From Geodermatophilus bullaregiensis (GTDB lineage Bacteria; Actinomycetota; Actinomycetes; Mycobacteriales; Geodermatophilaceae), in the NCBI RefSeq assembly GCF_016907675.1, contig NZ_JAFBCJ010000001.1, forward strand, positions 3,844,001-3,908,000: a stretch of DNA of 64,000 nt. The letters are read 5' to 3'. The notes under the pieces are model-generated. The model ran no database searches and was not told where the DNA came from. It worked only from the letters and a program-made list of their open reading frames with translations. Both the position numbers and the translations under genes were made by a program. Positions 3 through 49,553 of the stretch are shown in pieces; within the stretch, counting starts at the first letter, position 1, and each line of letters begins with the position of its first letter.

Positions 3-1181
3 GAGCTCCACCCCGACCGCCTCTCCGACGGAGGGACCGCCCCGCGCACCGCCGCGGGCAGCCCCTCCCGCACGGCCGCAGCGACGACGCCCGCCCGGCG
101 ACGTCCCACGGCCGGGACGGCGGCCCAGCGGAAGGCCCCGCAGCGACGTCAGGGGGAGACGTCGTCGGCGGGGGAGGGCACGGCACCGCGTCCGGCCCGC
201 CGTCCCGGCCCGCGTCCGCGGCCGACGCCGCATCCCCGGTCGCGGCCCGGCACGGCTCCGGTGGCCGCCGTCGCCGACGCGGCCGAGCTGGTCGCGGCCG
301 CCGACGCCCAGGCGCTGGCCGTCGTCGCACCGGCGCCGGACGCCGAGGTCGTCGACGCCGGGACCGAGACCGCCGCAGAGGGCGACGCCGCCGCCGGGGA
401 CGCAGGTCTCCGCAGGGGCCGCCACGCGCCTCTCCGCCGGCTGCGCGCGCCGCGCCGCCGTCCCGGCCTCTACCTGGCCGTCGCCGTCGTGGGCGCGGTG
501 GGGCTGGGCACGGCCACCGCCGGGGACGGGGTCGCGCTGGCCGAGGGCCCCACCCCGGTGGGCGCGTCGGTGAGCGTGGCCGAGGAGCTCGGCATCCGTG
601 GCGAGGACCTGTCACCGGCCGCGCAGGCGGCGGTCATCGAGTCCGACGCCGAGGTGCTGCTCGGCGAGGTCACCGCCAGCCGCACCGCCCGCGAGGCCGA
701 GGAGGCCGCCGCGGCGCAGGCCCAGGCCGAGGCCGACCGGGTCGCCTCGGAGGCCGCCGCTGCCGCAGCGGCCGAGGCCGCCCGTCCGCGGGCGGTCCTG
801 CCGGTCGACGGCGCCCGGCTGACCAGCACGTTCGGCCCCCGGTGGGGCTCGCTGCACGCCGGCATCGACCTGGCCGCGCCGGTCGGCACGCCGGAGTACG
901 CGGCTGCCGACGGCGTCGTCCTGGAGGCCGGCCCGGCCGGCGGCTACGGCCTGGTCGTGTACGTCCGGCACGGGAACGGTGACGTCACCGTCTACGGGCA
1001 CATGGAGGAGATCCTCGTGGAGCCCGGCCAGGTGGTCCGCGCCGGCGACACCATCGCGCTGCTGGGCAACCGCGGGCAGTCCACCGGCCCGCACCTGCAC
1101 TTCGAGGTGCACGTGGGCGGCATCGACGGCGAGCGCGTCGACCCGCTGCCGTGGCTGCGGGAGCGCGGCGTCACCGTCTGA
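3..1181 (+). CDS. M23 family metallopeptidase, membrane-anchored (5' end probably outside window)
   Basis: A LytM-type zinc endopeptidase expected to cut peptidoglycan cross-bridges outside the membrane. Counting from the GTG at 261, residues 1-68 are Ala/Arg-rich and disordered, 69-88 form one membrane segment, about 140-176 is an Ala/Glu-rich helix, and 180-300 is the M23 domain. The zinc and catalytic residues are present: H199 and D203 (HAGID), H247 (YGHM) and HLH at 278-280. The frame stays open with high third-position GC from position 3 to 261 but holds no ATG, GTG or TTG, so the true start is either GTG 261 or, more likely, upstream of the window. Family assignment is firm; the N-terminus is not. 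Confidence 0.88.
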   Translation, partial: ELHPDRLSDGGTAPRTAAGSPSRTAAATTPARRRPTAGTAAQRKAPQRRQGETSSAGEGTAPRPARRPGPRPRPTPHPRSRPGTAPVAAVADAAELVAAADAQALAVVAPAPDAEVVDAGTETAAEGDAAAGDAGLRRGRHAPLRRLRAPRRRPGLYLAVAVVGAVGLGTATAGDGVALAEGPTPVGASVSVAEELGIRGEDLSPAAQAAVIESDAEVLLGEVTASRTAREAEEAAAAQAQAEADRVASEAAAAAAAEAARPRAVLPVDGARLTSTFGPRWGSLHAGIDLAAPVGTPEYAAADGVVLEAGPAGGYGLVVYVRHGNGDVTVYGHMEEILVEPGQVVRAGDTIALLGNRGQSTGPHLHFEVHVGGIDGERVDPLPWLRERGVTV

Positions 1182-1352
1182 GAAAGGACCCTGCTGCCCC
1201 CCACCCCTCGCAGGCTCGGGGCGGGACCCTGCAGCAGGGCCGCCGCTGCCCCCCACCCCTCGCAGGCTCGGGGCGGGACCCTGCAGCAGGGCCGCCGCTG
1301 CCCCCCACCCCTCGCAGGCTCGGGGCGGGACCCTGCAGCAGGGCCGCCGCTG
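1182..1352. repeat. GC-rich hairpin element with a perfect 3 x 52 bp tandem array
   Basis: The element begins directly after the M23 stop codon with GAAAGGACC. A 52-base unit (CCCCCCACCCCTCGC... to ...GGGCCGCCGCTG) is repeated three times without mismatch at 1197-1248, 1249-1300 and 1301-1352. Each unit holds an inner GC-rich hairpin core plus CTGCTGC/GCAGCAG outer arms. It is one of several related copies in this window. Confidence 0.9.
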
Positions 1353-8332: not shown

Positions 8333-10090
8333 GTGACGATCGCGCCTGCACCGATCGTGAGCCGGCCGAGCCCGGCTCGCGAGGTCCAGCGGGGCTCCCA
8401 GCTGTCGAACCTGCTGCGGACCACGGACCACAAGACCATCGGCCTGATGTACATGGCCACGTCGTTCGCCTACTTCGTCATCGGCGGCTTCATGGCCATG
8501 CTGATCCGCGGCGAACTGGGGCAGCCGGGGCTGCAGTTCCTCTCGCCGGAGCAGTACAACCAGCTGGTCACGATGCACGGCACCGTCATGCTGCTGATGT
8601 TCGCGACGCCGCTGTTCTTCGCGTTCTCGAACCTGATCATGCCGCTGCAGATCGGTGCGCCCGACGTCGCCTTCCCGCGGCTGAACGCCTTCTCGTTCTG
8701 GCTGTTCTTCTTCGGCAGCGCGATCGTCATCTCGAGCTTCCTCACCCCGGGCGGGGCCGCCGACTTCGGCTGGTACGCCTACGCCCCGCTCTCCGACGTC
8801 GTGCACACCCCCGGCGTCGGCGTCAACATGTGGTTCGCCGGTCTGGCGGTCAGCGGTCTGGGCACCATCCTCGGCGCGGTCAACTTCACCGCCACGATCG
8901 TCTGCCTGCGGGCGCCGGGCATGACCCTGTTCCGGATGCCGATCTTCACCTGGAACACGCTGGTCACCAGCCTGCTGGTGCTGCTCGCGTTCCCGATCCT
9001 CACCGCGGCGCTGCTGGGGATGCTGGCCGACCGCAACCTCGGCGCCCTCGTCTTCTCCGACGAGAACGGCGGGCCGATGCTGTGGCAGCACCTGTTCTGG
9101 TTCTTCGGCCACCCCGAGGTCTACATCATCGCGCTGCCGTTCTTCGGCATCATCACCGAGGTCATCCCGGTGTTCTCCCGCAAGCCGCTGTTCGGCTACA
9201 AGGGCATGGTCGCCGCGACGCTGCTCATCGGTGGCCTCTCGCTGACCGTGTGGGCGCACCACATGTACGCGACCGGCGCCGTGCTGCTGCCGTTCTTCGC
9301 CTTCCTGACCTACCTCATCGCCGTGCCGACCGGCATCAAGTTCTTCAACTGGATCGGCACGATGTGGCGCGGGCAGCTCACCTTCGAGACGCCGATGCTG
9401 TTCTCGATCGGCTTCCTGGTCACCTTCCTCCTGGGTGGGCTGACCGGTGTGCTGCTGGCCAGCCCGCCGCTGGACTGGCACGTCAACGACAGCTACTTCG
9501 TCGTCGCCCACTTCCACTACGTCGTCTTCGGCACCGTGGTGTTCGCCGCCTACGCCGGCATCTACTTCTGGTTCCCGAAGATGGCCGGCCGGATGATGGA
9601 CGAGCGGCTGGGCAAGCTGCACTTCTGGCTGACCTTCCTCGGCTTCCACGCGACGTTCCTGGTCCAGCACTGGCTGGGCACCCAGGGCATGCCGCGCCGG
9701 TACGTCGACTACCTGCCCACCGACGGCTTCACCACGCTGCACGTGGTCTCGACGATCGGGTCGTTCGTCCTCGGCGCCTCGACGATCCCGTTCCTCTACA
9801 ACGTGGCCAAGTCGTGGAAGTACGGCCGGCTCGCGCTGCGCGACGACCCCTGGGGTCACGGCAACTCGCTGGAGTGGGCGACGTCGTCCCCGCCGCCGCG
9901 GCACAACTTCACCGAGATCCCGCGGATCCGGTCGGAGCGCCCGGCCTTCGAGGCGCACTACCCCCACCTCATCGAGCGGCTCCAGCGCGAGGCGCACGTC
10001 GGCAAGCGGCACGAGCCCTACGGCGGTGTCAGCGAGCTGGCCGGCGACTCCGGTCCCCGTCAGGGTCCCAACGACCCCGATCCGTTCTGA
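8333..10090 (+). CDS. ctaD: Cytochrome c oxidase subunit I (aa3 type)
   Basis: The catalytic subunit of the aa3 terminal oxidase, which reduces oxygen to water and pumps protons in the cell membrane. The 585-residue protein has 12 hydrophobic segments. Metal ligands are all visible: MHGTVM (H82, low-spin heme a), FGHPEVYI (CuB His cross-linked to Tyr), WAHHMY (two CuB His) and VAHFHYV (heme a3 and heme a His). The hydrophilic C-terminal tail of about 60 residues is usual for actinobacteria. It stands alone here; subunits II and III are not in the window, which is common in this phylum. Confidence 0.97.
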
Positions 10091-14568: not shown

Positions 14569-15042
14569 GTGCTGCGCATCGACCGCGCGACCTACGACGC
14601 CATCGTGGCCCACGCCCGGGAGGACCACCCGGACGAGGCCTGTGGCGTCGTCGCCGGCCCCGAGGGCAGCGACCGTCCCGAGCGGTTCATCCCGATGCTC
14701 AACGCCGCGCGGTCGCCGACGTTCTACGAGTTCGACTCGGCCGACCTGCTCAGGCTGTACCGGGACATGGACGACCGCGACGAGGAACCGGTCGTCGTCT
14801 ACCACTCGCACACCGCGACCGAGGCCCACCCCTCGCGGACGGACGTCGCGTACGCCTCCGAGCCGAACGCGCACTACGTCCTCGTCTCCACCCGGCACCA
14901 CGGCCGGCAGACCGGCCTGGCCCGCGACGAGGTCGAGTTCCGCAGCTTCCGGATCGTCGACGGCCAGGTGACCGAGGAGGACGTCGAGGTCGTCGAGTCC
15001 TACCTGTTCGGCCACTCGCCGACGACCGTCGTCTACGACTGA
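14569..15042 (+). CDS. mec: JAMM/Mov34 metallopeptidase, CysO-cysteine peptidase (Mec) type
   Basis: A zinc isopeptidase-like enzyme that, in M. tuberculosis, releases cysteine from the carrier CysO. The 157-residue protein carries the whole JAMM motif: catalytic E23 in PDEACGVV, H79 and H81 in VYHSH, and S89 and D92 in HPSRTD. The surrounding order mec-cysO-cysM is the same as in mycobacteria and supports this specific role. The GTG start sits 7 bases behind a TAGACT -10 box. A hairpin element separates it from cysO. Confidence 0.92.
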   Translation: MLRIDRATYDAIVAHAREDHPDEACGVVAGPEGSDRPERFIPMLNAARSPTFYEFDSADLLRLYRDMDDRDEEPVVVYHSHTATEAHPSRTDVAYASEPNAHYVLVSTRHHGRQTGLARDEVEFRSFRIVDGQVTEEDVEVVESYLFGHSPTTVVYD

Positions 15043-15105
15043 GCGAGGACCCCGTCCTCCCCACCCCGCGCAGGCTCGGGGCGGTGCCCTGGACGGGGCC
15101 GGCCG
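15043..15105. repeat. GC-rich hairpin element, single copy
   Basis: Begins directly after the mec stop with GCGAGGACC. Core CCCCACCCCGCGCAGGCTCG and GGGGCGGTGCCCT; outer arms CCCCGTCC and GGACGGGG pair exactly. Confidence 0.8.
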
Positions 15106-15493: not shown

Positions 15494-17253
<1,760 letters not shown>

Positions 17254-25623: not shown

Positions 25624-26508
25624 TCAGGACGTGGGCTCGGCCCCCGTCCCGGAGCCGGTCCCGGAGTCGGTGCCCGGGTCCGTACCGGTGTCGCCGTCGG
25701 TCCCGGAGTCGGTGCCCGAGTCGGTGCCGCTGTCGGTGCCCGGGTCCGTACCGGTGTCGCCGTCGGTCCCGGAGTCGGTGCCGGAGTCGGTGCCGTCGTC
25801 CGTCGTCGGGGAGGACTCCGAGGTGGAGGTGGCCGGTGTCGAGGAGTCGCTCTCCTCCGAGCCGGGCTCCTCGGCGCCGCTCTCCGGAGCCGTGGACGCC
25901 GGGGCCTCGGTCGTCCCGTCGGCCGGTGTCGTCGTGGCGGGGGAGGTCGGCGTGGTGTCCCGCGAGGACGACACGGTGGCGAGCTCGCCGAGGGTGGTGG
26001 ACGAGGACGAGCTGTCGGACCCGACCAGCGCGGACACCGGCTTCTGCCCGATGAGCTCGATGCCGGTGACGACGCCCATCGCGAGGACGAAGACGGTCAC
26101 GGCGTAGACGGCCACCCGTGGCCAGCGCACCCGCGCGAGCAGCGGCCGCGAGACGGGCGCGGCGCGGCGGGGGTCCAGGTAGGCGGGCAGCACACGGGTG
26201 GCGGTGTCGTCGCCGGCGGGGTCCGCGGTCGCGGGGGGCCGGCCGCCGACCCGGGTGCGCACCCTGCGCAGCCGCTCGGTGGTGCGGCTGAGGGAGGCGC
26301 TGTAGACGGCGGAGCCCGTGGTGCTGACCACGCTGACCAGGGCTGCGCCGATGACGGTGCCGGCCACGCCGAAGAAGGAGGCGAGGACCGCCGCGGACAC
26401 CGCGGCCATGGCCCCGGCCACCACCTGGGTGGCGCTGAGCTGGGTCCGCGGGGCCTTCTCGGCGGTCTCGTCGGGTCGGTCGCTGGTCTCGGTGCGTGGG
26501 GAGGTCAT
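25624..26508 (-). CDS. Membrane protein with Ser/Thr/Gly/Asp repeat tail, unknown function
   Basis: A 294-residue protein of no family I can name. Residues about 25-52 form a hydrophobic hairpin (VVAGAMAAVSAAVLASFFGVAG... TVIGAALVSVVSTTG), about 125-150 a third membrane segment (WPRVAVYAVTVFVLAMGVVTGI), and the remaining 140 residues are a low-complexity extracellular-type tail ending in SGTD/TGTDPGTD repeats. The tail is coded by a 66-base repeat (22 residues) present twice. The architecture suggests an anchored surface or signalling protein. Confidence 0.7.
   Translation of the reverse strand: MTSPRTETSDRPDETAEKAPRTQLSATQVVAGAMAAVSAAVLASFFGVAGTVIGAALVSVVSTTGSAVYSASLSRTTERLRRVRTRVGGRPPATADPAGDDTATRVLPAYLDPRRAAPVSRPLLARVRWPRVAVYAVTVFVLAMGVVTGIELIGQKPVSALVGSDSSSSSTTLGELATVSSSRDTTPTSPATTTPADGTTEAPASTAPESGAEEPGSEESDSSTPATSTSESSPTTDDGTDSGTDSGTDGDTGTDPGTDSGTDSGTDSGTDGDTGTDPGTDSGTGSGTGAEPTS
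25666..25797 (-). repeat. 66 bp coding tandem repeat, two copies
   Basis: Unit 25666-25731 recurs at 25732-25797 with only a few changes, encoding 22-residue blocks of the form SGTDSGTDGDTGTDPGTD plus SGTD. Copy number is likely to vary between strains. Confidence 0.85.
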
Positions 26509-36556: not shown

Positions 36557-37069
36557 TCAGCGCCAGCGGTCCCGCGGGACCGTCGCCCCCGGGCGGGTCG
36601 CGCCGTGCACTCCGGACAGGTCGTCGGGGACCGGCCGGGGGCGCGCGGGCGGGATCTCGTCCCACGGGGGCGTCAGCCAGGTCGGCGTCGGCGCCGCCAC
36701 CGCCGGCTGCCCGGCGCCCGGGCGCGGCCTGGGGCGCACGGGGTCCTGGCCGGTGAGCGGCCCGTCGAGCTCGAGGTGCTCGGCCAGCCCCTCCTCGCGG
36801 ACCAGCCGCCGGGTCACGGCCGGGGCCCCGACCACGCGGCAGCACCGGCCGGCCGCGGCCATGGCGTCGCTGAACCCGGCCAGGGCCTGCAGCGCGGTCC
36901 CGTCCTGGAAGCGCGCGCCGGCCACGTCGACGACGACGCTGGTCGTCCCGTGCCCCGCGGCCCGGGTCAGGGCCGGGACGAGCCGGGTCAGCGTGGGGCG
37001 GCCGGCGTCCCCGGTGAGGCGGACGACCACCTGGTCGGGAGCGGGCACGACAGCGACGTGGAGGTGCAC
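36557..37069 (-). CDS. STAS domain protein (anti-sigma factor antagonist-like)
   Basis: A 170-residue protein. Residues 1-95 form a STAS fold (VVVRLTGDAGRPTLTRLVPAL; VVVDVAGARFQDGTALQALAGFSDAM), with QDGT where antagonist proteins usually have a phosphorylated Ser in DSSG; the Thr in DGT could take that role. Residues about 105-170 are a Pro/Arg-rich disordered tail. It could take part in partner-switching with sigma or anti-sigma factors; the SpoIIE-type phosphatase at 58.5-60.9 kb is a conceivable partner, but this is only inference. GTG 37069 is the first start. Confidence 0.75.
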   Translation of the reverse strand: MHLHVAVVPAPDQVVVRLTGDAGRPTLTRLVPALTRAAGHGTTSVVVDVAGARFQDGTALQALAGFSDAMAAAGRCCRVVGAPAVTRRLVREEGLAEHLELDGPLTGQDPVRPRPRPGAGQPAVAAPTPTWLTPPWDEIPPARPRPVPDDLSGVHGATRPGATVPRDRWR

Positions 37070-37248
37070 GGGGACTCCGTGGTGTCTGCGGCATCACGGG
37101 TTCGGACGCCGGGACCGACGCTAGTGCCGATCCCGGATCCCAGCAACGGGGCGTGTTCGGTTGGTTGCGGATTGCTCCCGTCAGACGGTGCCCGAGGTGC
37201 ACGCGACCCGCGTCCCGGCTGCGGTGCGACAGGCGTCACCATGGGGGC

Positions 37249-38403
37249 GTGGACGCCGAGGACTTCACGCAGATCCGGAACGCGGTGCGCGAGCTGGTCC
37301 GGGAGGTGGTGGTCCCGCGCGAGGAGGAGATCGACCTCGACGACCGCATCCCCGAGGAGCTGCGCGGCGCCGCCGCCCAGATGGGCCTGTTCGGCTACGC
37401 CCTCCCGGAGGAGTACGGGGGCCTGGGCGTGGACATGCGCGAGGACGTCGAGCTCGCCTTCGAGTTCGGCTACACGACACCGGCCTTCCGCTCGCTGTTC
37501 GGCACCAACAACGGCATCGCCGGGCAGGTGATCGCCCGCTTCGGCAGCGAGGAGCAGAAGAAGGCGTACCTGCCGCGGCTGGCCGCCGGTGAGCTGATCG
37601 GCTCCTTCGCGCTCACCGAGGCCGAGGCCGGGTCCGACCCCGCCGGCCTGCGCACCAGCGCCCGCCGCGACGGCGAGGGCTGGGTGATCGGCGGCGCGAA
37701 GCGCTACATCACCAACGCCCCGCTGGCCGACCTGTTCGTCGTCTTCGCCCGCACCGACCCGGCCGAGAAGGGCGGGCGCGGCATCTCCAGCTTCGTCGTC
37801 GACGCGAGGGCGCCCGGCGTCTCGCTCGGGGCCAAGGACGTGAAGATGGGGCAGTCGGGCGCCTGGACGTCGGAGGTCTTCTTTGACGACGTGCACGTGC
37901 CCGGCGACGCGCTGGTCGGCGAGGAGGGCCGCGGCTACGCCAAGGCGCTCACCGTGCTGTCCCGCGGCCGGCTGCACATCGCCGCCCTGTGCGTCGGGAT
38001 GGCGCAGCGGGTGCTCGACGAGTCGGTCGCCTACGCCGCCACCGCCAAGCAGGGCGGTGCGCCGATCGGGCGCTTCCAGCTGGTGCAGGCGCTGATCGCC
38101 GACATGCACGCCGAGCTGCTCGCCGGGAGGGCGATGGTCCGCGAGGTCGCCGCCCGCTACGACAGCGGCGAGGACACCTCGATCGGTCCCTCGTCGGCGA
38201 AGCTCTGGTGCAGCGAGATGGTCGGCCGCGCCACCGACCGGGCGGTGCAGGTGCACGGCGGCCTGGGCTACCTGCGCACCACGCCGGTGGAGCGCTTCTA
38301 CCGCGACGCCCGGCTCTACCGGCTCTACGAGGGCACCAGCGAGGTGCAGCGGGTCATCGTCGGCAGCGGCCTGCTGCGCGCGGCCGGCATGCCGCGTGGC
38401 TGA
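37249..38403 (+). CDS. Acyl-CoA dehydrogenase
   Basis: An FAD enzyme that makes the alpha-beta double bond in acyl-CoA. The 384-residue protein has the N-terminal helical domain, FALTEAEAGSDPAGLRTSA and WVIGGAKRYITNAP, and the C-terminal domain with the catalytic Glu in RLYEGTSEVQRVIVG. Chain-length preference is unknown. It is followed at once by a hairpin element and a thioesterase gene. Confidence 0.93.
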   Translation: MDAEDFTQIRNAVRELVREVVVPREEEIDLDDRIPEELRGAAAQMGLFGYALPEEYGGLGVDMREDVELAFEFGYTTPAFRSLFGTNNGIAGQVIARFGSEEQKKAYLPRLAAGELIGSFALTEAEAGSDPAGLRTSARRDGEGWVIGGAKRYITNAPLADLFVVFARTDPAEKGGRGISSFVVDARAPGVSLGAKDVKMGQSGAWTSEVFFDDVHVPGDALVGEEGRGYAKALTVLSRGRLHIAALCVGMAQRVLDESVAYAATAKQGGAPIGRFQLVQALIADMHAELLAGRAMVREVAARYDSGEDTSIGPSSAKLWCSEMVGRATDRAVQVHGGLGYLRTTPVERFYRDARLYRLYEGTSEVQRVIVGSGLLRAAGMPRG

Positions 38404-38463
38404 GGAAGGACCCTCCTGCCCCCACCGCTCGCGAGCTCGCGGCGGGACCCTGCAGGAGGGCCG
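38404..38463. repeat. GC-rich hairpin element, single copy
   Basis: Begins directly after the dehydrogenase stop with GGAAGGACC. Core CCCCACCGCTCGCGAGCTCG and CGGCGGGACCCT; outer arms CCTCCTGC and GCAGGAGG pair exactly. It runs into the thioesterase coding frame. Confidence 0.85.
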
Positions 38464-39129
38464 GCGGGGGAGCGGGCCGCGCGCCGGGAGGCGGTCGGCG
38501 AGCTGGGGGAGGCGCTGCGCGAGCTGGCCGACGCCGCCGTCCGCACCGAGGTCCCCGAGGACGAGCTCGCGGACGTCGCGGCCGCGGCCCGCGGGCTCGC
38601 CGCCCGGCTGCGGGCCCGCGGCCGGGGGCTGCACGAGGTCGCCCGCGTCGACGACCCCGAGACGGGTGAGCGCTGGTACAGCCCGGTCTACGGCCCGGGC
38701 AGCCCGGTGGCGCCGTCGCTGGTGGCCGCCGACACCCCCGACGGGCGGGCGACCGGCCGGGTCACCGTCGGCAAGCCGCACGAGGGTCCGCCGGGACTGG
38801 TGCACGGCGGGGTGGTGGCCACCCTGCTCGACCACGTCCTGGCCCGCGCCGTCCGCGCGGCCGGCCGCGGTGGGCTCACCGCCACGCTGACGGTCCACTA
38901 CCGCCGGCCGGTGCGGCTGGGCGTGCCGCTGCTGCTGTCGGCGCAGATGGGTGAGACGCACGGCCGCCGCACCTCCGCGACCGCCCGGCTGGTCGCCGAG
39001 GACGACCCCGGCACCGTGCTCGCCGAGGCGGAGGGCCTGTTCGTCTCGCTGCGCCCCGAACGGGCGGCCAGCGTCTTCGCGCACATGGACCGGCCGGCCG
39101 GCGCCTGGACGTCGTCCTCGGACGGCTGA
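38464..39129 (+). CDS. PaaI-type acyl-CoA thioesterase, 5' end lost or displaced
   Basis: A hot-dog-fold thioesterase. The conserved part is PHEGPPGLVHGGVVATLLDHVLARAV (catalytic region) and HYRRPVRLGVPLLL. Clear coding sequence (EAVGELGEALRELADAAVRTEVPEDELADVAAAARGLAARL in shortened form) extends back to the hairpin element, but no ATG, GTG or TTG lies in frame between there and the preceding stop; the first in-frame GTG is 38707, inside the conserved part. The element seems to have replaced the start region. The remaining gene may still be read from a rare codon, or be a pseudogene. Confidence 0.65.
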   Translation, partial: AGERAARREAVGELGEALRELADAAVRTEVPEDELADVAAAARGLAARLRARGRGLHEVARVDDPETGERWYSPVYGPGSPVAPSLVAADTPDGRATGRVTVGKPHEGPPGLVHGGVVATLLDHVLARAVRAAGRGGLTATLTVHYRRPVRLGVPLLLSAQMGETHGRRTSATARLVAEDDPGTVLAEAEGLFVSLRPERAASVFAHMDRPAGAWTSSSDG

Positions 39130-39249
39130 CCGTCGCTGTACCGCAGTGAGCACCTGCCCTGCGCCGAGCGCTGCGGACGGGCGGGATGCGCGCAGGCCCG
39201 CGCGACCGGCCGCTGGCTCAGCGGGCGGTCGCGCGGGTGCGTCGGCGGA

Positions 39250-40424
39250 TCACGCTGCGGGTTGCAGGAGTGGTGGCCTGGTGAGGATCTCGGTGCCGTC
39301 GGGTCGCCAGGTGTGCCATCGCCCGTCGGGTCGTCGCTCGACGCGGAAGCCGTGGTGGACCTTGGTGTGGTGCCGTTCGCACAGCAGGGCGGAGTTGGCC
39401 AGTGAGGTCTCGCCGCCGTCGAGCCAGTGCACGAGGTGGTGCACCTCGGCCCACCAGTGAAAGGACCCCCCCGCCCCCCCGCCACTCGCGAGCTCGCGGC
39501 GGGCCCCTGCGGAGGGGCCGGCCGGTCGGCCAGGCGCTGCTCGCGGCCCAGGTCCAGCGGTGCGCCGTCGGGGCCCATCACGACGCGGGAGACGGTGGCG
39601 TCGCAGGCCAGCCAGCGGGCGCGGGCGGCGGAGATGACCGCACCGAACCCCATCCGGACGGCACCGGGCCTCGTGCCGGGGTCGACCAGGTCCGCCAGGT
39701 CGATCACCACGGCGACGTGCGGCTTGACCGTCCGCAGGGTGGGCAGCGACCCGGACGCCAGGGCGTTGTCGGCCAGCTGCACCAGCGCGTCGCCCAGGCG
39801 CTGGGCGCGGCTGCGGTCGTCGCCGGCGGGGCGGTCGGCCTGCACGACGGACTCCAGGACGGCCTGCAGCTTCTCCCCGCCGGCGGCGTCGAGCTGCCCG
39901 CGGATGCTCAGGGCGCCGTCGGCGTGCTTGGACAGGGTGAGCGACCGGCCCTCGGTCGGATCGGGCTCCGGACCATCGGGGTCGAGGTCGTCGAGGTAGC
40001 GCTGCACGACCGGCCCGAGCGCGGCGTGCTCCTGCTCGATCGCCACGCCGGTGAACACCGCGTCGATGACGGCCAGGTCCACGCCCTGGGCGGCGGCCGC
40101 GGCCAGCCGCTCGGGCGTCACCGCCCGCGCCGCCACGGCCACCTGCTCGGCGCTGACCAGCCCGGTGTCGTGCGCCTCGGCCAGCGCGGGCAGGTGCTCG
40201 AGCACCCGCCCGGCGGTGACCAGCCGGCCGGCTGCGGCCGCCGACAGCCGGCAGTGCCCGCGCAGCCATGACGCCACGCTCTTCAGCCCGTCGCGCTCGG
40301 GCGCCTGCGTCAGCTCCGCGGTCCGCACCCGCCGGGCCAGCGCGGCGTCGATCCGGTTGCGCTCGGCGACCAGCGCGGCGACGTCGTCCAGGACGTCACC
40401 ACTCGCCAGATGACCCGAACACAT
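39250..40424 (-). pseudogene. DUF222-HNH endonuclease gene broken by a hairpin element
   Basis: The 5' part (40424 to about 39525) is a normal DUF222 region of about 300 residues (MCSGHLASGDVLDD..., ending LDLGREQRLAD). At the point where the family continues with a stretch holding a CxFPGC zinc motif, a hairpin element (39459-39524) stands instead. After it the HNH part resumes in another frame: HWWAEVHHLVHWLDGG, then LANSALLCERHH and the end at 39250. About 25 codons are gone and the frame is shifted, so the nuclease is not intact. Such genes are present in many copies in actinobacteria, and loss of one is unlikely to matter. Confidence 0.85.
39459..39524. repeat. GC-rich hairpin element inside the HNH gene
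   Basis: GAAAGGACCCCCCC, core CCCGCCACTCGCGAGCTCG, CGGCGGGCCCCTGCGGAGGGGCC. It replaces about 75 bases of the expected coding sequence. Confidence 0.88.
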
Positions 40425-40431
40425 GTACGAA

Positions 40432-40437
40432 ACACTA
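40432..40437 (-). promoter_or_regulatory. -10 box of the HNH gene, leaderless
   Basis: Minus-strand TAGTGT, 7 bases before ATG 40424, in a patch of lower GC. Confidence 0.5.
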
Positions 40438-40580
40438 GCCGGTCATGAGTGCTCGATCAAGACGAAACCGCAGCTCAACGCGGTGATGAGGGCGGTTGGC
40501 GTCACCGCAGCGCTCGGGGCGGCGAGCCCGCCTCCCACCCGTGGTACGCCCGGCGGGTGCGGTGCGGTCACCCGGCCGGG

Positions 40581-49099: not shown

Positions 49100-49116
49100 G
49101 CCTCTCCTGGTGACGT

Positions 49117-49182
49117 GCTGGAACGGCCCTCGCCCCTCCCTCCTCGCGCCGAGGTGCGAGGTGCGGGGGAGGGAGGGGGCCC
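49117..49182. repeat. GC-rich hairpin between paaB and paaC, diverged element
   Basis: GGCCCTCGCCCCTCCCTC and its near complement GGGGGAGGGAGGGGGCCC enclose CCTCGCGCCGAGGTGCGAGG. Outline and position resemble the hairpin family, but the conserved core is not clear. Within the operon it may separate or stabilise mRNA segments. Confidence 0.5.
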
Positions 49183-49184
49183 GC

Positions 49185-49553
49185 TCACATGTGCGGGACG
49201 TCCTCGGGGATCTCGTAGAACGTCGGGTGGCGGTAGACCTTGTCGCCGCTGGGGGCGAACATCGGGTCCTTCTCGTCGGGGCTCGAGGCGGTGATGTCGG
49301 CGGCCCTGACCACCCAGATGCTCACGCCCTCGTTGCGCCGGGTGAACACGTCGCGGGCGGCGTGCACGGCCATCTCGTCGTCCGGCGCGTGCAGCGAGCC
49401 GACGTGCACGTGGTTGAGGCCGCGCTTGCCGCGGACGAACACCTCGTACAGCGGCCAGTCGCGCCGGCTCACCGACGGCGACGGCGCGGTCGGCACCTCG
49501 GGCCCGGTGGGGACGGCGCCGTGCCCGCCCTCGGCGGTGACGTCGGCGCTCAT
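49185..49553 (-). CDS. paaB: Phenylacetyl-CoA epoxidase subunit PaaB
   Basis: A small structural subunit, 122 residues, that bridges PaaAC units. The family core is [50 protein letters not shown]; the N-terminal 28 residues are an extra Thr/Pro-rich tail. ATG 49553 overlaps the paaA stop (ATGA). Confidence 0.95.

Follow-up and report, generated by a model that had tools for sequence, protein, structure and literature searches.

MIRUs insert at DTGA sites. The review PMC12548453 describes them as inserting at start codons and as carrying an internal reading frame that is coupled to the next gene. The REPs of Pseudomonas, Enterobacteria, and Stenotrophomonas are characterized as short imperfect extragenic palindromes that number in the hundreds per genome, have a fixed head, and form tandem arrays (PMC3116915, PMC2817692), and REP doublets are reported to be randomly distributed in extragenic space (PMC3116915). 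A family of hairpin elements in Geodermatophilus bullaregiensis is compared here with these systems. With a probability of roughly 0.6, it is a new family of short non-autonomous REP/MITE-like mobile hairpins that are put 3′ of stop codons by a trans-acting mover. In its main form the family is confined to a single bacterial family, and its members are directed to, or retained at, stops. The sequence-only reading that first pointed to the elements knew of no description of them, and none was found in Rfam or in the literature on Geodermatophilaceae repeats, Actinobacteria REPs, stop-codon repeats, and MIRU, a search that took in few subscription papers. Passages from a paper on Geodermatophilaceae genomes (PMC9686282) deal with CRISPR and isoprene units or give a reference.

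The window, meaning the whole stretch of 64,000 nucleotides that was analyzed, covers positions 3,844,001–3,908,000 of a genome that consists of a single contig of 5.2 Mb. Six elements had been picked out in it by the sequence-only reading, and all six are present, with matches to a covariance model (R1) that start at 1181, 2327, 15042, 16499, 38403, and 39458. The copy first reported lies on the plus strand at 38403–38463, after the TGA (38401–38403) of an acyl-CoA dehydrogenase gene (37249–38403); it scores 83.6 bits and has arms CCTCCTGC/GCAGGAGG. A full copy at 1181–1242 (plus strand, 88.6 bits, arms CCTGCTGC/GCAGCAGG) follows the TGA (1179–1181) of a Peptidase_M23 gene (261–1181). It opens a tandem array spanning 1193–1356, with a 52-bp period and about three units, in which the plus-strand repeats at 1243–1356 reproduce the hairpin without its GGACC/GGCC foot and give partial R1 matches at 1243–1289 and 1295–1341. 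Another full plus-strand copy, at 2327–2403, follows the TGA of a cation efflux gene (1416–2327), scores 81.2 bits at 2327–2388, and ends in a 3′ tail, TTCCATCTCGTCACC. The plus-strand copy at 15042–15101 is likewise full and follows the TGA of a JAB domain gene (14569–15042), with 53.6 bits and arms CCCGTCC/GGACGGG.

These four copies abut their stops, which bears out the original description of the elements as always lying right after a stop codon for 1181, 2327, 15042, and 38403, and for 108 of 141 copies genome-wide. It does not hold for the other two. The copy at 16499–16560 (plus strand, 70.4 bits) has its GAAGGA starting 8 nt past the stop of a PALP enzyme gene (15542–16492), and is adjoined by a second partial core at 16564–16595 on the same strand (31.4 bits, model positions 19–50). 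The copy at 39458–39520 (plus strand, 66.3 bits) lies antisense inside a minus-strand gene (38898–40424) assigned to DUF222 by Pfam, and in the part of the protein past the DUF222 domain, which is where the element sits, Pfam gives no family match. A copy elsewhere in the genome (G000 2663910, locus L106) has flanks similar to those of the 39458 copy and is also inside a predicted opposite-strand gene. A seventh, diverged copy is found on the minus strand at about 49103–49185, after the stop of a minus-strand gene (49185–49553); it scores 24.5 bits at 49131–49185 and has a different hairpin but the common tail, GTTCCAGCACGTCACC. Rfam 15 at gathering score finds only a tRNA in the window and nothing at the elements. 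A permissive Rfam scan of 38350–38520 returns only the DnaX frameshift element (RF00382) upstream of the hairpin, at 38359–38392 in the end of the acyl-CoA dehydrogenase gene, a match that is probably due to chance (21.9 bits, gathering score 35). A terminator scan of 37000–40500 detects no terminator-like site at the elements. Tandem repeats with periods of 12–66 bp at 25646–25795, within a minus-strand gene (25624–26508), are unrelated to the elements.

Model R1 was built from 14 equal-length copies with the structure specified by hand. It leads from a foot, GG(A)CC / GGCC, through an outer arm that varies and an internal loop (CC versus nCCCT) to an inner stem and a 10-nt apical loop, TCGCRRGCTC. 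An element is ~60 nt long, or ~77 nt with its 3′ tail, and its head and foot are GAAGGACC/GGCC with one extra unpaired A. The stems vary, and the invariant bases (TCGC..GCTC, nCCCT, and the foot GAAGGACC with the extra A) are mostly unpaired, as would be expected of a handle that a protein holds; the core is therefore probably recognized by a protein. The common 3′ tail is near TTCCAGCACGTCACC and, judged by eye, pairs partly with the foot. TTCC continues 26 of the 141 copies placed in the genome, and GTCACC or CTCACC occurs within 24 nt beyond 22 of them.

The arms were said to differ between copies and yet to change together, and they do. Among the 14 model copies, changes are two-sided in 7 of 18 pairs, and one-sided cell changes number zero. 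Paired cells reach 96.8%, against 88.4% in shuffles, and the covariation score is 0.231 against 0.081, with 0 of 500 shuffles as high in either case; the structure was derived from the same 14 copies, so that the comparison is biased in its favor. Shifting the partner by 1–3 columns reduces paired cells in these copies from 97% to 44–56%. Across the genome, 5 of the 141 copies have no unambiguous foot, which leaves 136 for counting arms. Over the first 8 bp of the outer arm, 87% of their cells are Watson–Crick versus 64% when arms are exchanged between copies; 71 of the 136 have perfect arms, and 20 distinct arm sequences occur. When the six window elements are folded singly and compared with dinucleotide shuffles, their z values are −2.5, −1.6, −1.6, −0.5, +0.2, and −1.0. 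Single copies thus fold little or no better than shuffled sequence, and the signal resides in the comparison of copies. A shuffle test of arm pairing had been suggested at the outset; it is passed clearly by the family, for which alone it is decisive, and little or not at all by individual copies.

Copies with exactly one arm mismatch have G–T in 8 cases, A–C in 10, and another mismatch in 15 (136 copies, counted without a known-RNA control), and over all cells G–T and A–C number 31 and 33. Since G–T is not preferred over A–C, there is no sign of an RNA stem that is maintained after insertion, and the arms therefore decay regardless of RNA wobble. Arm co-variation looks to arise when a hairpin is made or exchanged, through subfamilies or the exchange of whole hairpins. 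The compensatory changes had been attributed to selection for a folded structure or to generation by one; these counts favor generation and speak against selection on an RNA stem. Arms that change as perfect pairs without G–T intermediates bear on the origin of compensatory changes.

The host genome holds at least 152 R1 matches, tandem part-units included, and the exact core CTCGCRRGCTCGnGGCGGG occurs in it 55 times (reversed control, 0). In a set of 41 relatives, R1 matches 25, which are all of the 25 Geodermatophilus genomes there, its own included, and it matches 0 of 16 genomes in other families of the order. A covariance-model scan of the Geodermatophilaceae, as had been proposed, finds not a few copies but hits in 102 of the family's 112 genomes and in 9 of 12 genera, the counts being as low as 0, 1, 2, 4, and 5 in some species and reaching the scoring limit in others; Geodermatophilus, Blastococcus, Modestobacter, Klenkia, Trujillonella, and Goekera are taken here to be Geodermatophilaceae. 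Five genomes (G042, G048, G058, G070, and G091) have 0 to 5 matches amid match-rich relatives in the family. Across the class, R1 matches 3 of 296 genomes, its own included, and the other two, with weak matches (1 and 4), belong to one genus (g33) of another family. The exact core pattern TCGCRRGCTC-N4-CGGG-N-CCCT is found in 5 of 394 class genomes, with 57 occurrences in its own genome, 2 in another member of the family, 4 and 7 in the g33 genomes, and one stray, and the reversed control has no match in any class genome listed. Copies in g33 have the same core layout with other arms, such as CCATTGGC/GCCAATGG. They make up a second repeat family there, noted at L352, L354, L357, L358, L366, L370, L372, and L374, and 2 of 5 loci examined begin 1–2 nt past a predicted stop. 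A phage origin was considered and rejected, the core pattern having 0 matches in viral contigs.

The 178 R1 matches of the host, which come from overlapping loci, reduce to 141 distinct copies once part-units, duplicate hits to one copy, and matches scoring less than ~43 bits are set aside; ten regions (4.56–5.14 Mb), with about a dozen matches, fall outside this set. Genes were called by a simple codon-usage caller trained on the window. Most of the 141 copies lie between genes, and 108 start −3 to +2 nt from the stop of an upstream same-strand gene, where ~3% would be expected by chance (from 350 stops and 37,065 noncoding bases). Only two start at 3 to 10 nt. The commonest arrangement, stop-N-GAAGGACC, accounts for 65 copies, 64 of them with TGA. 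The stops adjoined are TGA in 93 cases, TAG in 12, and TAA in 3, proportions like those of other genes (108 versus 368 genes). Copies from ten related species abut a stop in 32 of 40 cases (41 R1 matches, one part-unit excluded). A check of 34 single loci in relatives left one not located and 11 scored as other, including L145, a stop copy missed by the gene caller, and the nested L144, L155, and L167. More than 100 genes in this genome thus carry a hairpin at the stop codon, and related species carry the same family.

The elements probably spread by transposition. In the proposed mechanism, an imperfect hairpin would form on one strand, and the constant unpaired set (apical loop TCGCRRGCTC, internal loop nCCCT, and foot GAAGGACC/GGCC) would provide the handle for a trans-acting enzyme, with outer arms that need merely pair. 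The hairpin would enter immediately 3′ of the stop in gene-sense orientation, often with the loss of some adjacent bases. Insertion at this place would leave the protein end intact and so would be tolerated. The minor targets would be the loops of copies already in place and positions next to promoter −10 boxes. The stop codon itself may direct insertion, rather than selection retaining the copies there. Against direction by stops are the 33 of 141 copies elsewhere, a TGA made at the junction of one clean insertion site, and the 11 of 37 3′ ends that fill a gap between genes. If insertion is stop-directed, this would be a kind of safe-harbor targeting new for mobile DNA, and it could help to find a novel enzyme that acts on hairpins. 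A bolder and rather doubtful version supposes that the insertion machinery homes on functional stops as such, coupled to translation or transcription, that a non-Y1 enzyme reads the core, and that the arms are rewritten in each copying round; a need for single-stranded DNA would then also explain −10 boxes and hairpin loops as minor targets. The g33 repeats, from another actinobacterial family, are on this view a distant version of the core that has arms of its own.

Insertion might instead be directed by a short sequence alone, CTG or T(GA/AG), with stops dominating since a genome of 76% GC offers few such triplets elsewhere and insertion after a stop is harmless. This is rather unlikely. Among the 33 copies away from stops, 17 have TGA, TAG, or TAA at the equal distance, some of which may arise at the junction. 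Where the upstream neighbor is on the opposite strand, 11 of 19 copies abut A-N3-TA, presumably the reverse of a TANNNT −10 box. A C before TGA is enriched at occupied stops (51 of 58 versus 156 of 249, p = 1.5e-4), and an extended target motif upstream of the stop appears only as weak deviations, the strongest being A at −5 (p = 0.001, 18 positions tested). However, the noncoding DNA of the same stretches contains 651 non-stop TGA, TAG, or TAA triplets versus 350 stops, and no stop codon is favored. Elements occupy 74 of 239 CTGA stops versus 1 of 138 non-stop noncoding CTGA (p = 6e-16), counts that come from stretches selected because they contain elements, a choice that raises the rates but not obviously their ratio. 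Even between convergent genes, where insertions should do no damage at any position, non-stop CTGA is hardly occupied (0 of 22, versus 25 of 103 stops, p = 0.007).

An unlikely reading is a cis-acting 3′ RNA element, such as a terminator, an mRNA stabilizer, or a termination-coupled hairpin, which selection keeps at the stop while copies elsewhere are lost. The position is precise whichever stop codon is used, non-stop CTGA in convergent gaps is unoccupied, and the arms are well paired in most copies. Against it are the absence of an Rfam family, the lack of wobble preference, and the copies found beside promoters, inside the DUF222 gene, and inside other copies. A terminator would further be expected to show a T-run, but TTTT lies within 20 nt downstream of 0 of 141 copies. 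The comparison between species also weighs against an RNA role. The window-syntenic region was compared in ten other Geodermatophilus species, 11 with the host and one genome per species, the region being partial for some and shorter than the window in G020 and G004. The 46 copies in these 11 regions fall into 17 sites, each of which was inspected, and six sites hold 31 of the 46. A site counts as unoccupied if it has no R1 match at E <= 0.001, so that remnants and diverged copies (such as window 49103–49185) count as absent. At 10 of the 17 sites, a copy is present in 2 to 9 species with no R1 match in the others, and most orthologous stops have no R1 match. Near the stop at window 10090, a GC-rich terminator-like hairpin lies downstream in 11 of 11 species, with the element or without it, and the downstream terminator-like hairpin of gene 261–1181 is likewise kept in several species. 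In view of these two sites and the missing T-run, the suggestion that the elements are decorated terminators is not supported.

Sites differ in how widely they are occupied. The stop at 15042 has a copy in 9 of 11 species, with two arm types whose distribution is at odds with the tree, and at 49103–49185 there are R1 matches in 2 of 4 alignable species. The stop at 38403 is occupied in 4 of 11 species, all with arms CCTCCTGC and with quite different loops. In one of these copies (L200, G007, at the stop of the orthologue of 37249–38403) an additional palindrome, CCCCCGCGAGCGGGGG, enlarges the loop, as though other palindromes could insert there. At the inspected stop sites, protein ends are unchanged with or without the element, with one exception, the unoccupied G004, in which the gene corresponding to 261–1181 is one codon longer. 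Many unoccupied sites hold remnants, and several retain the tail GTCACC, so some are losses. One clean insertion away from a recognized stop is seen in G004, where six species are uninterrupted and have 5 more bases, and where the TGA of the occupied species is created at the junction CTG|A. On visual inspection of the orthologous sites, no target duplication was noticed. Two ideas were set aside. One, suggested by sites A and B, was that CT^AG is the target and that the element supplies GA to remake TGA; other orthologous stops are TGA either way, and stop usage is equal. The comparison at site A covered 25 loci, of which one had no match and two, L190 and L193, represent site B or a position that is uncertain. 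The other, that the element supplies its own stop codon, is unsupported at stops, where protein ends are nearly equal in occupied and unoccupied orthologues, although at one non-stop site the TGA is created at the junction.

The 3′ ends raise the question of whether DNA is lost on insertion. A convergent neighbor is present for 57 of the 141 copies, and in 13 of the 57 the 3′ end comes within 3 nt of the stop of this neighbor. Among stop copies with a convergent neighbor, 11 of 37 also end within 3 nt of its stop and thus occupy the gap from end to end; of 43 convergent gaps that hold an element, 13 are 60–64 nt long. Element-free convergent gaps measure 0–3 nt in 3 of 42 cases (6 more are overlaps), against the 11 of 37 (p = 0.016). 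Such filled gaps suggest that spare DNA disappears as far as the next essential base, and they weaken the case for recognition of the stop itself. At the stop at 38403, the seven unoccupied species have 8–17 more bases after the stop than the window sequence has outside the element. At 39458, three alignable relatives hold another segment of similar length (92 versus 91 nt), which looks like replacement rather than plain insertion. Copies also lie nested in the loop of another copy, between its halves (L183, L187, L186, L144, L155, and L167, and 293527 and 2600892 in G000), and in five of these (L144, L187, L183, 293527, and L167) the host loop lacks ~9–12 bases relative to the consensus, as counted by eye. 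Taken with the proposed mechanism, these observations point to a small target loss on insertion. They are also what would be seen if insertion were loose and accompanied by loss of neighboring DNA, with selection keeping those products that end at essential bases such as a stop or a −10 box. That explanation is nonetheless quite improbable: 108 of 141 copies have their 5′ end at the stop and just two have it at 3–10 nt, which is sharper than gradual loss predicts, and 3′ ends touch stops much less often than 5′ ends.

A further alternative dispenses largely or wholly with transposition and lets the arms co-vary through template switching during replication or in-place conversion between copies. 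Template switching has been reported to create and mend stems (PMC8794818), and both arms here change jointly without intermediates. One stop can hold different arms in related species: four arm types occur in four species near the stop at 10090, with a loop-deleted copy in a fifth (G007), and arm types that differ at one stop in related species have similar outer ends. Yet such exchange cannot alone place similar hairpins at more than 100 unlinked stops, and at 38403 the arms stayed constant in four species while the loop changed, which makes it very unlikely as the whole explanation. The reading of the family as mobile, REP-like DNA, which the sequence-only reading had raised, draws support from the copy number, the presence and absence at orthologous stops, the nesting, and the tandem arrays. 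Arrays with a 50–52 bp period occur; at L105, positions 1801–2055 hold one full copy and four tandem part-units of 50 bp with equal score. Among 71 copies of 62 nt, none are identical, and even the four closest pairs have one difference in 60 bases, so the family has not been active very recently in this genome.

A trans-acting mover of the hairpins was sought with the PF01797 profile (RAYT / IS200-type transposase), and neither a mobilizing gene nor a longer autonomous form was found: at E <= 0.001, PF01797 is matched in 0 of 26 genomes of the genus and 0 of 112 of the family, with 5 of 14 control genomes positive. The tyrosine (Y1) transposase acting in trans that had first been proposed is thereby disfavored, and movement may depend on an enzyme that is unrelated or has diverged, or on one now lost in many species. 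That these are REPs moved by a RAYT, an IS200/IS605-like Y1 transposase, is accordingly highly improbable despite the high copy number, short imperfect palindrome, fixed 5′ head, extra unpaired base, mostly intergenic position, and tandem copies, given the family-wide want of PF01797, a head other than GTAG/GTGG, and no inverted doublets at fixed spacing.

Compared with known systems, the elements work most like REPs but fail three testable REP/RAYT features, namely the head, the RAYT, and the inverted doublets. Like REPs, they are short, palindromic, extragenic, and present in high copy, with a fixed head by the hairpin and with tandem arrays. Their head is GAAGGACC instead of GTAG/GTGG, the 112 family genomes have no PF01797 match, and, unlike REPs, they have variable arms around a constant core and sit mostly at stops. 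They differ from REPINs in being single oriented hairpins, the nearest opposite-strand neighbors among the 141 copies being 533, 583, and 849 bp apart. With MITEs and IS-derived miniatures they share a non-autonomous, palindromic, high-copy nature that varies between genomes, whereas a parental IS (transposase search with PF01797 only), a target duplication, and a simple terminal inverted repeat were not noticed. With intrinsic terminators they share a GC-rich hairpin just past the stop codon, but they have no T-run and at two sites sit between the stop and another terminator-like hairpin. MIRUs are similar in that an apparently mobile actinobacterial repeat settles at a translation signal and disturbs the host gene little; judged by description alone (PMC12548453), the two are set apart by start codons and a reading frame there and stop codons here.
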